Of a DNA stretch of 64,000 nt, positions 49,782 to 53,876 are shown piece after piece. Under the pieces are notes generated by a model that saw nothing but the letters and a program-made list of their open reading frames with translations, ran no database searches and had not been told where the DNA came from. This stretch comes from Candidatus Gastranaerophilales bacterium (lineage in GTDB: Bacteria; Cyanobacteriota; Vampirovibrionia; Gastranaerophilales; Gastranaerophilaceae). The position numbers and the translations under genes are program-made. Where the stretch lies: positions 62,001 through 126,000 of the forward strand of contig CALVFU010000002.1 of assembly GCA_944326905.1 (NCBI GenBank). The letters run 5' to 3'. Each line of letters starts with the position of its first letter. Position 1 is the stretch's first letter.

Positions 49782-50321
49782 TTATTCATAATTAAGTTGT
49801 GTAATTTTATATTTGTCATCCAAATTACACCAATTTATATCATAATAATTATTTCTGACAAATTTCTGGAATGAAGAATACGACCAATCTTTTGGAACAA
49901 TATTATAATGCTTGTATGAATTATAGTGAATATAGTCTATATGCCTATTTAAATCTTTTTCATCTCTTATAATATGATCATAATATCTTCTTTGCCAAAC
50001 TCCTTTTTCTCCTCTTTTAATTGCCGATGGTGATAAATTATTGCAAATATATTTATCAGGAATATTAGTAGAAAAATAATACTTAATTGTACGTATTATT
50101 TTAGGAATATCATTGGGCTGTTCAGGTGATATTATTATATGACAATGATTTTGTAATACATTTATTGCAATAATTTCAAATCTATATTTGGACTTCGCAA
50201 ACCTAAAACAATTTCTAAAAATATCTATATTTGGAATTAAGATATTTCTTCTATCGTAAGTAACAAATGTTATAAAGACCGGGTTAAGTGAATTAAAAAA
50301 ATAACGTCTATAATTACTCAT
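49782..50321 (-). CDS. REP-associated tyrosine transposase
   Basis: A Y1 HUH transposase-like protein of 179 residues. It starts YRRYFFNSLNPVFITFVTYDR, the His pair is in NHCHIIISP, and the downstream part GVWQRRYYDHIIRDE with IDYIHYNSYKH carries the expected Tyr. The closest class is RAYT/TnpA-REP of the IS200/IS605 superfamily, which acts on REP hairpins. It is bounded by an exact REP copy in opposite orientation on each side (49656-49677 and 50339-50360), so it and its REPs form one unit. Confidence 0.9.
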   Translation of the reverse strand: MSNYRRYFFNSLNPVFITFVTYDRRNILIPNIDIFRNCFRFAKSKYRFEIIAINVLQNHCHIIISPEQPNDIPKIIRTIKYYFSTNIPDKYICNNLSPSAIKRGEKGVWQRRYYDHIIRDEKDLNRHIDYIHYNSYKHYNIVPKDWSYSSFQKFVRNNYYDINWCNLDDKYKITQLNYE

Positions 50322-50337
50322 AAAATAATTTTACATT

Positions 50338-50537
50338 AAGGTGCAATAAATTGCACCCTACTATTTGTATAGGACACCATTTTTGTACCACTTGCCCTGA
50401 GTATGATTAACAGCAGGGTATTTACAATATATTGTAGGGTGCATTTTTTTTGCACCAGTAGCCTATTTGTATAGGACACCATTTTTTGTATCACTTGCCC
50501 TGAGCATGATTAACAGTAGGGTGCAATTCTTTGCACC
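50338..50537. repeat. REP hairpins and a 100-bp tandem repeat, right of the transposase
   Basis: An inverted REP copy is at 50338-50361, and forward copies are at 50434-50456 and 50516-50537. The stretch CTATTTGTATAGGACACC through GATTAACAG occurs twice (about 50361-50417 and 50463-50518), giving a tandem unit of about 100 bp. Confidence 0.88.
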
Positions 50538-50570
50538 GATAGCCAATATTAATATTAGTTAATATAACTA

Positions 50571-50600
50571 TTGACAATCCTTGATATATAAGCGTATACT
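50571..50600 (+). promoter_or_regulatory. Strong promoter of the Ser-codon leader
   Basis: A perfect TTGACA (50571-50576), 18 bp, TATACT (50595-50600). It is the best -35 box seen in the window. It drives the leader peptide gene and, past the attenuator, the gene at 50785. Confidence 0.8.
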
Positions 50601-50619
50601 TATTTTGAAAGGTAACGAT

Positions 50620-50703
50620 ATGAGATTATACACCGTTTATACAAATTCATCATCCTCATCCTCCTCAAAGAACTTGCGGGGCAGGATGTTTTTCGGTGTA
50701 TAA
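50620..50703 (+). CDS. Leader peptide with seven consecutive Ser codons
   Basis: A 27-residue open frame: ATG at 50620, TAA at 50701-50703, GAAAGG 7 nt upstream. It begins MRLYTVYTN, then Ser10-Ser16 encoded by TCA TCA TCC TCA TCC TCC TCA (50647-50667), and ends KNLRGRMFFGV. A run of one amino acid in a short frame between a promoter and an intrinsic terminator is the hallmark of a translational attenuation leader, here apparently for charged tRNA-Ser. The genes known to use this control are biosynthetic; the gene downstream is an unrelated unknown. Confidence 0.75.
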   Translation: MRLYTVYTNSSSSSSSKNLRGRMFFGV

Positions 50704-50725
50704 GTTATTACCGTATAAAGATTCA

Positions 50726-50754
50726 AAAAGCCTCGCGATTATGCGGGGCTTTTT
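50726..50754 (+). terminator. Attenuator-like intrinsic terminator
   Basis: AAAAAGCCTCGC pairs with GCGGGGCTTTTT over a 6-nt loop, ending in a T-run. Its 5' arm GCCTCGC (50730-50736) can pair equally well with a second GCGGGGC at 50676-50682, inside the leader frame just after the Ser codons, which would be an antiterminator. Confidence 0.85.
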
Positions 50755-50784
50755 AGTGAGCAGCCAGAAGGAGAAATTAAAACA

Positions 50785-52323
50785 GTGGTAACAATCAACA
50801 GAATACAGGCAGAAAATAGGAGACCGGCATTTAAAGGCGTTTTAGACGGGACATTCACTAATGTAATGAGGGTTCTTGATACCAATGAAATGATTAATGC
50901 CGTAGTTTTAGATGTCGGTCCGATGTCACTGCCGAGAGCCTATATTGATGCAACCCAGCGCAATAAGTATGCCGGAATAGAGACTCTTTCAAGAGAAATG
51001 GAAGGTACATTTATTAATTGCCTCTCAGCCGGCGTGTTTGCAAGTTTGATTTCATATTTTGCATCAAAATGGGTAATGCCCGAGGTAAGTATTAATTCAA
51101 ACAGCTGGTATTCAAAAGATTCTTTAACAGCACTTCAAGAAGCCTGGAATACAGGCGGTAAAAATCTTAAAGGCTATGCTGAAAATATTTTTAATAACCT
51201 ATCAGGAGTCGACGGACATAGGGTAAATAAATTCAGCGACATTGACTGGAATAATACAGAGTGGATTGATAAAGACCGCTGGGCAAAAATTAAGTGGAAA
51301 AATCCTGAATATAAGGGTATTGAAAATAATTTAAAAACGGCAGAAGGGTTTATTGATACGCTTGTTAAAATTATTGATGATAAAAAAATTGCCCGCGAAG
51401 ATAAGGGTAACATTTTACGAATAATGGAGTTAAGACTTACTAATGCACTTGGAGCAGGACGGGATACAACGTTAACCATCGGAAATAATAAAATTGCTGA
51501 TAAATTAGAAAATATTTTACGTGATGCCTATAATATGGGAAATGATGTTTATACAAATATCCATGTAAAACCGTTAGCAGCAATTAATAAACTTACCAAG
51601 ATTAATAAAATGAAAATATTTGGAGCTCTTAGTGCATCGTGTATTTTAGGGCTAACTAATCAGTATATAAATAGAAAAATAACTGAAAAAAGAACAGGGA
51701 AAAAGGGCTTTGTCGGCGATGTGGATTATACAACACGCGGCTGCGGCGCTGTTCAAAAGAAGGATAAATATCTTACAGCAAAAAAAGTTGCTGCTTCAGC
51801 AGGTATGATAGGTATGCTTCTTGCAGTTATGCGGGTTAAGAATTGGAAAGATTTTGTAAGGAAGCTGGAATTTACCGGACCAGTAACAAGTGGTAATGCT
51901 ATTAAAACGGTATATGGAGCAAATATTGTCGGACGTTTTATGGCGTCTGATAATAGTACTGAGCTTAGAGAAACCGTATTCAGAGATTACAATGGGTTCT
52001 TAAATTGGTTAGTATTTGGTGGTTTTGCAGCAAAAGGTGTCGCAAATCTCCTTGATAAAAAGCGTGAAAATTTATTTAATCATAAAAAGGAAGGTAAAGG
52101 TATAAAACACTGGCTTAATGATTTAACCCTTAAAACACACAATGAACTTGCTGCAAAAGGAGCTGTGTTTGCAAAGAAAAATATTTGGAAATTAAATCTT
52201 TCGCACGCGGCGGGTATTACTTATTCGGCACTAGCTCTTGGTATTGCACTCCCTGTTATAAATGCTGAATGGACTAAGTATAATGCCCGCAGAGCAAAAA
52301 AGAAACAAGAGTTTAAGGTGTAA
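50785..52323 (+). CDS. Multi-spanning membrane protein of unknown function, attenuator-controlled
   Basis: A protein of 512 residues that starts at a GTG (50785) with AAGGAG upstream. The N-terminus INRIQAENRRPAFKG shares the PAF[GK][AG] motif with the 37630 gene. Hydrophobic segments lie near 75-95 (FINCLSAGVFASLISYF), 275-290 (FGALSASCILGLTNQY), 335-350 (AASAGMIGMLLAVM), 405-420 and 475-490. The stretches between are soluble and charged. No known family is recognised. It follows the Ser-codon leader and terminator, so its level may depend on serine or tRNA-Ser supply. Confidence 0.72.
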   Translation: MVTINRIQAENRRPAFKGVLDGTFTNVMRVLDTNEMINAVVLDVGPMSLPRAYIDATQRNKYAGIETLSREMEGTFINCLSAGVFASLISYFASKWVMPEVSINSNSWYSKDSLTALQEAWNTGGKNLKGYAENIFNNLSGVDGHRVNKFSDIDWNNTEWIDKDRWAKIKWKNPEYKGIENNLKTAEGFIDTLVKIIDDKKIAREDKGNILRIMELRLTNALGAGRDTTLTIGNNKIADKLENILRDAYNMGNDVYTNIHVKPLAAINKLTKINKMKIFGALSASCILGLTNQYINRKITEKRTGKKGFVGDVDYTTRGCGAVQKKDKYLTAKKVAASAGMIGMLLAVMRVKNWKDFVRKLEFTGPVTSGNAIKTVYGANIVGRFMASDNSTELRETVFRDYNGFLNWLVFGGFAAKGVANLLDKKRENLFNHKKEGKGIKHWLNDLTLKTHNELAAKGAVFAKKNIWKLNLSHAAGITYSALALGIALPVINAEWTKYNARRAKKKQEFKV

Positions 52324-53829: not shown

Positions 53830-53876
53830 AATAAGGCGGGGCGGTTGTTATAAACAACCGCCCCGCCTTATTTTAT
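53830..53876. terminator. 20-bp perfect bidirectional terminator hairpin
   Basis: A perfect 20-bp GC-rich stem (53830-53849 with 53853-53872) and a 3-nt loop, followed by TTTT, between convergent genes. Confidence 0.92.

Follow-up and report, generated by a model that had tools for sequence, protein, structure and literature searches.

The gene for a 512-residue protein in a Gastranaerophilales (Melainabacteria) genome is preceded by a short leader that, judged from comparative sequence, probably switches the gene on at serine shortage. We consider it highly probable that the leader does so by ribosome-mediated transcription attenuation answering uncharged tRNA-Ser(UCN), with TCN serine codons as the control codons. 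The leader lies in the window, the 64,000-nucleotide stretch of DNA analyzed here, and combines the parts by which attenuators are recognized: a translatable leader ORF, a run of codons for a single amino acid, and mutually exclusive, covarying antiterminator and terminator pairings (Table 1). A sequence-only reading of the window had proposed attenuation logic for serine ahead of this gene, a proposal that conservation and covariation among homologous leaders now support, and the promoter, the 27-residue leader with seven Ser codons, the terminator and the GTG-start gene all lie where that reading had placed them.

Table 1 Features of the serine leader and of the gene that follows it in the window
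Feature	Position	Strand	Basis
Sigma-70 type promoter, TTGACA-18-TATACT	50571..50600	+	sequence scan
Ribosome binding site of the leader ORF, AAAGG	50608..50612	+	sequence
Leader ORF, 27 codons, MRLYTVYTNSSSSSSSKNLRGRMFFGV	50620..50703	+	homologous ORFs likewise placed in 109 distinct upstream regions
Predicted control codons TCA TCA TCC TCA TCC TCC TCA (7 Ser)	50647..50667	+	
Segment 1:2 hairpin (Ser-codon run with AGGATG), competitor of the antiterminator	50651..50688	+	folds
Segment 2, TTGCGGGGC, duplicate of the terminator 3' arm; antiterminator with segment 3	50674..50682	+	fold, covariation
Intrinsic terminator (segments 3 and 4) with U run	50725..50754	+	folds, covariation
Outer helix that closes off the leader ORF, 50626-50635 paired with 50694-50703	50626..50703	+	folds
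Ribosome binding site of the structural gene, AAGGAG	50768..50773	+	sequence
Putatively controlled gene, 512-residue predicted helical protein, GTG start at 50785	50785..52323	+	

The promoter of the window leader is an 11/12 match and the joint best among 64 promoter-like sites in 12 kb. A custom scan of the 64-kb window for a run-bearing small ORF followed by a terminator and then an ORF returned this leader as the sole case, and DNA similarity searches found no second copy in the 1.78-Mb genome whose contig C2 includes the window. Rfam covariance models, covering the T-box and other described RNA families, gave no gathering-score match in the window. As the sequence-only reading had pointed out, GCGGGGC after the Ser run (50676-50682) copies the 3' arm of the terminator, whose arms lie at 50730-50736 and 50743-50749, and both the antiterminator fold and covariation uphold the pairing that this duplication implies. 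The whole leader folds at -46.9 kcal/mol, with a z score of -5.1 against dinucleotide shuffles. That reading had also suggested folding the leader in alternative states: with the Ser run kept, the 1:2 hairpin (50651-50656 with 50683-50688) forms together with the terminator, and with the run deleted, which mimics cover by a ribosome, the minimum-energy fold is a 9-bp antiterminator joining 50674-50682 to 50730-50738. A third alternative pairing put forward at the same time, the outer helix of Table 1, holds for the members of the genus that we compared, where it spans 10-13 bp and shows compensatory change, but it is not general in the wider family, and on that family comparison we rejected it as a general third structure beyond the window's genus.

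Every one of the six further genomes of the genus that we searched had an orthologue of the gene, as did other genera and, at E ≤ 1e-100, 66 of the family's 239 genomes. The fetched loci, after removal of duplicates, comprised 109 distinct leaders ahead of orthologues, 72 with a Ser run and 37 with a Cys run at the same position. Ser runs extend to 10 Ser and sometimes hold interspersed Thr or Cys, and Cys runs are usually CCCC; examples include MRLYTVYTNSSSSSSSKNLRGRMFFGV in the window, MNLHIVNTNSCSSSSSRYLRGRLSFDV (G001), MKLYIIVNNNSSSSSCSKTDRDLMNFDV (G003), MKKLYALTTSSSSSSSSNKFPTGLILKLCV (L162), MKIKNSKSNNICCCCKIPQGFYGYLC (G021) and MRYVNLNNLICCCCKFCRRTYL (G118). No leader with a run was recognized at L129 or at L108/L206, a locus at a contig edge. 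Scanning for promoters placed an exact TTGACA ahead of 80 of the 109 leaders and the second hexamer a median of 19 nt from the leader ATG, and a simple stem-plus-U-run search detected the terminator at 102 of 109 loci, compared with 9 of 107 control stretches taken from within the gene. The sequence-only reading had held that it would be contradicted if homologous loci kept the terminator and lost the run or the second copy of its 3' arm; homologues retain all three together. Elsewhere in the genome, poly-TCN runs are found at some 30 sites, most of them in long frames or in small frames that lack leader anatomy; they could be taken to mean that a low-complexity ORF has merely come by chance to lie here with a strong promoter and an ordinary terminator. 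Conservation in 109 distinct upstream regions, together with the covariation of the paired segments, makes such a coincidence hardly credible.

We assessed covariation in an alignment of 25 diverse Ser leaders, using 500 shuffles and slid-column controls. The antiterminator helix had 97% of cells paired, with two-sided changes at five of eight pairs, and the terminator helix had 99.5% of cells paired, with two-sided changes at seven of eight. None of the 500 shuffles attained the observed percentage, two-sided pair count or score for either helix, and a slide by one column lowered pairing to 51-62%. Because both helices covary, the 5' arm of the terminator covaries with two partners. The core itself varies by lineage, CGGGACTT being replaced by CGGAACTT, CGAGACTT, TAAGAACTT, GAGGAACTT or GCGGGGC. 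RNAalifold alone placed only the terminator in the R2 model, and the antiterminator was named by us and then tested. At the level of single loci, the 2:3 duplex was significant (p ≤ 0.05) at 85% of the Ser loci and 74% of the Cys loci. The 1:2 hairpin was recovered by folding in the window and in many Cys leaders, and about half of the loci pass p ≤ 0.05, the 1:2 region falling below shuffles at that threshold for 52% of the Ser loci and 46% of the Cys loci.

These pairings also bear on the idea that a functional peptide, for instance a modified one of the lanthipeptide kind, is made from the small ORF and that the terminator does no more than set this ORF apart from the gene downstream. Short Ser- and Cys-rich peptides do have a superficial likeness to the precursors of such products, but the segments covary in the way of alternative RNA pairings, the peptide shows poor conservation beyond its run, and lineages alternate between a pure Ser and a pure Cys version, so that we regard this explanation as very improbable.

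Attenuation, the reading that we prefer, would operate as follows. When charged UCN tRNA-Ser is ample, the ribosome would clear the Ser run, reach the leader stop and cover segment 2; the 3:4 terminator would then form and transcription would end before the gene. When UCN tRNA-Ser is scarce, the ribosome would stall on the Ser run and cover segment 1, the 2:3 pairing would form, and RNA polymerase would read into the gene for the 512-residue protein. If the leader is not translated at all, the 1:2 hairpin and the terminator would hold the gene off. The anatomy of the leader, its conservation and the covariation of both exclusive pairings come from comparative sequence, as do the single codon-class change and the low serine content described below; stalling on uncharged tRNA and the resulting readthrough are steps that we infer.

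The two kinds of run appear to be related by a single switch of control codon. In a midpoint-rooted protein tree of 100 rows, all 65 Ser-leader proteins grouped in one clade (SH-aLRT 98) that excludes the Cys-leader rows, and leader type changed once on the tree, against a mean of 29 changes when types were shuffled. Since the Ser type forms one clade, one ancestral change of control codon explains the pattern. This change most likely ran from Cys to Ser, a direction that is likely rather than proven because the tree is midpoint-rooted, and the Ser attenuator thus most likely derives from a Cys-sensing version still kept by sister lineages. TGY and TCY codons differ by a single base, and the Ser runs retain 13 TGC codons and one TGT. 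Serine codons within the runs of the 109 leaders number 348 TCN versus 5 AGY, compared with 74% TCN in neighboring genes. In serine-starved Bacillus subtilis, ribosomes slow at UCN and not at AGY codons, and Cys codons slow too (PMC3862929); this shared slowing offers a physiological bridge between the Ser and Cys versions. The gene cysE scored above cut-off in 53 of 57 genomes, Ser and Cys types together, so leader type does not track cysteine auxotrophy, and a tie between the two, sought via cysE, was discarded.

Some relatives of the Cys leaders stand ahead of genes for cysteine metabolism. Searches with an RNA model built on 12 leaders (the G147 leader, found earlier, and 11 belonging to family genes) identified Cys-leader relatives in two further genera, G046 and G050, where a cystathionine gamma-lyase/synthase-like gene and then a cysteine synthase-like gene come next. 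In G147, a SAM-dependent methyltransferase gene stands between the leader and the cystathionine lyase-like and cysteine synthase-like genes. The matches of the G147 PLP enzymes score under curated equivalog cut-offs, and their exact activities are for that reason left unassigned; identification of the G046 and G050 genes came from a side-by-side reading of their sequences with those of G147, not from a family search. For these Cys-leader relatives, the downstream genes would serve the metabolism of the amino acid presumed to be sensed. The loci concerned, L311 (501-3572), L334 and L335, lie in three genera and have CCCC leaders; the SAM-dependent methyltransferase gene precedes the pair at L311. 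With the Ser-leader RNA model, matches with E < 1e-6 all lay at known family genes, and no other serine-related gene was found behind a Ser leader.

It is conceivable that the signal behind the Ser leaders is still cysteine or sulfur status, read via serine as the precursor of cysteine, with the Ser run as a proxy. Relatives that control cysteine genes in three genera agree with this view, as do the probable descent of Ser leaders from Cys leaders, the Cys codons that some keep within the run, and the slowing of both UCN and Cys codons when B. subtilis is starved of serine (PMC3862929). We nevertheless judge it unlikely, as the proteins behind Ser leaders are poor in Ser and richer in Cys (2.9 residues per protein, versus 1.2 in the sister Cys group), which fits expression during a shortage of serine itself.

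The serine content of the proteins follows the codon identity of their leaders. The window protein contains 4.1% Ser; over 60 loci, Ser-leader proteins contain 4.3% Ser versus 6.0% in flanking genes (lower in 54, p = 2e-10), and the nearest Cys-leader proteins contain 7.1%. TCN codons number 13.4 per Ser-leader protein versus 27.0 in the nearest Cys-leader proteins, and they make up 61% of the serine codons in Ser-leader genes versus 74% in neighboring genes. A single genome that carries both kinds (L169 and L189) has 19 Ser in the Ser-leader copy and 40 in the Cys-leader copy. All of these low-serine proteins count once phylogenetically, because the Ser clade represents one event. Such a deficit is the bias expected of proteins made under starvation: a cognate amino acid bias, by which proteins needed in starvation are low in the scarce amino acid, has been described for biosynthetic enzymes (PMC4209129), whereas here it is found in uncharacterized proteins and matches the codon identity of the attenuator. 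The corresponding figures for cysteine are a mean of 0.7 Cys in Cys-leader proteins, with none in 16 of 35, but paralogues without a Ser- or Cys-run leader are likewise low in Cys, and we therefore downgraded Cys depletion from clean to weak evidence.

Composition and run chemistry also speak to nascent-peptide arrest, in which a poly-Ser or poly-Cys peptide would stall the ribosome on some other signal, for example membrane stress or a drug. In many leaders the run has conserved neighbors (Asn or Thr before it, Lys after it), in keeping with arrest, but the chemistry of the run swaps between Ser and Cys at one site, its length ranges from 3 to 10, and arrest does not explain why the protein encoded downstream contains so little of the sensed residue. 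We consider arrest improbable and continue to favor sensing of charged tRNA-Ser.

Neither Pfam nor NCBIfam contains a family that the 512-residue protein matches with a meaningful score, and its AlphaFold2 model, helical and confident (mean pLDDT 85, pTM 0.82), had no PDB fold match with E ≤ 0.001; the best, at E 0.3 and a TM of about 0.1, was discarded. A weak sequence match to GH76 mannanase chains had E 0.055. The protein has modest hydrophobic stretches, and the earlier description of it as a membrane protein is a reasonable guess. We would guess, and only guess, that it is membrane-associated and aids the scavenging or sparing of a scarce amino acid; under the proposed control it would help the cell through serine shortage.

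A second putative attenuator, with histidine codons, is independent of the Ser/Cys attenuator. Weak full-length matches to the Ser-leader model led to leaders with His runs (MTWKITLKLHHHYHHRYPEGL, MKNLLQKHHHTHHINP), each followed by a terminator and then by another protein; the R2 model is weakly similar to many plain terminators, and only matches with readable runs were kept. The family of proteins behind these leaders occurs in 139 of the 239 genomes of the family, including that of the window, where the leader is MITNIQNKIHHHHRLG (L403; G000 contig C8, 2548-4700). Leaders of this kind lie at L366-L422. A His-rich leader was present at all 53 loci read, a count that includes the duplicates L366/L373 and L369/L385, and the terminators were judged by eye in the first three examples. 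The proteins, of about 410-450 residues, average 0.26 His per about 426 residues, and 43 of 53 have none; the proteins of the Ser/Cys family contain 1.1% His. We do not claim homology between the two families, for which profile comparison gave a probability of 5-20%; a motif, GR..A..N..E..........G...N, looks common to both.

Runs of other codons were encountered as well. Met-run leaders were seen at L069 (from about 3375) and L070 (from about 3369) (MTDMMMAMQMMMMCKSASVCRM, MSDMMMDMQMMMCMSASVCRM), followed by a terminator and then a protein of about 340 residues with few Met after its first residues; the locus is present in two genomes of one genus, and a third amino-acid attenuator based on methionine is at present only a lead. 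At L025, a distant paralogue follows a reverse-strand leader, its stop near 1322, that has six Gln codons as well as a CC pair, and the protein there is not poor in Gln (14 of 508 residues). With distinctly less confidence than we attach to the serine attenuator, we think it somewhat more likely than not that Gastranaerophilales possess a starvation programme in which separate attenuators for single amino acids (Ser or Cys, His, possibly Met) each control their own, probably membrane-associated protein poor in the sensed residue, and in which the amino acid of one sensor was changed by recoding its leader run.

The class of mechanism is classical, and the serine control codon appears to be a new variation on it. 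The window leader resembles the trp, his, thr, leu and ilv attenuators in its control-codon leader ORF, its exclusive 2:3 and 3:4 pairings with a predicted 1:2 alternative, its terminator and its U run, and differs from them in that the control codon is serine UCN, the gene is not a biosynthetic enzyme, and the control-codon class has changed between Cys and Ser in evolution. A literature search, limited to open-access papers, found no serine-codon attenuator. Serine is also sensed by codons in SinR of B. subtilis, a role played there by UCN codons and not by AGY (PMC3862929); the codon class is common to both systems, but in SinR the codons belong to a coding gene without leader peptide or structured RNA, whereas in the window they occupy a dedicated attenuator.

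Polycysteine leaderless short ORFs of mycobacteria are, as summarized in PMC13236596 (citing Canestrari et al. 2020), cysteine-responsive and act by translation attenuation of cysteine genes. They and the leaders studied here share an upstream poly-Cys short ORF, and several of our Cys leaders start near the promoter; set against that summary, the present system differs in having an intrinsic terminator, an uncharacterized protein as its main target, and a Ser version. The window leader, with its ribosome site, Ser codons and terminator, falls outside the mycobacterial class as so described. In one group of Cys-leader loci, among them L020, L193 and L311, so little DNA separates the promoter from the leader ATG that transcripts may be leaderless, like those of the mycobacterial ORFs.

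A control-codon change between Cys and Ser that occurred once on the tree, with a matching shift in the protein, provides material on how the specificity of a sensor changes. These leaders would tie unannotated proteins to defined nutritional signals and so give a testable way into their function, in an order made up largely of uncultured gut bacteria. A shortage of the sensed amino acid within a protein is a signature that can be computed, and it could expose other starvation proteins.

The surroundings of the attenuator contain mobile and repetitive DNA. An IS200-type Y1 transposase gene occupies 49782-50321 of the window, and palindromes around GGTGCAAT/ATTGCACC with 40-nt direct repeats adjoin it at 50340-50540, which suggests a REP-associated transposase with its own repeats just upstream of the attenuator promoter. 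At L012 and L013, an oxidoreductase gene extends to the leader in place of the transposase and repeats. Downstream, between convergent genes, a perfect inverted repeat of 20 bp at 53830-53872 shows the features of a terminator on either strand.
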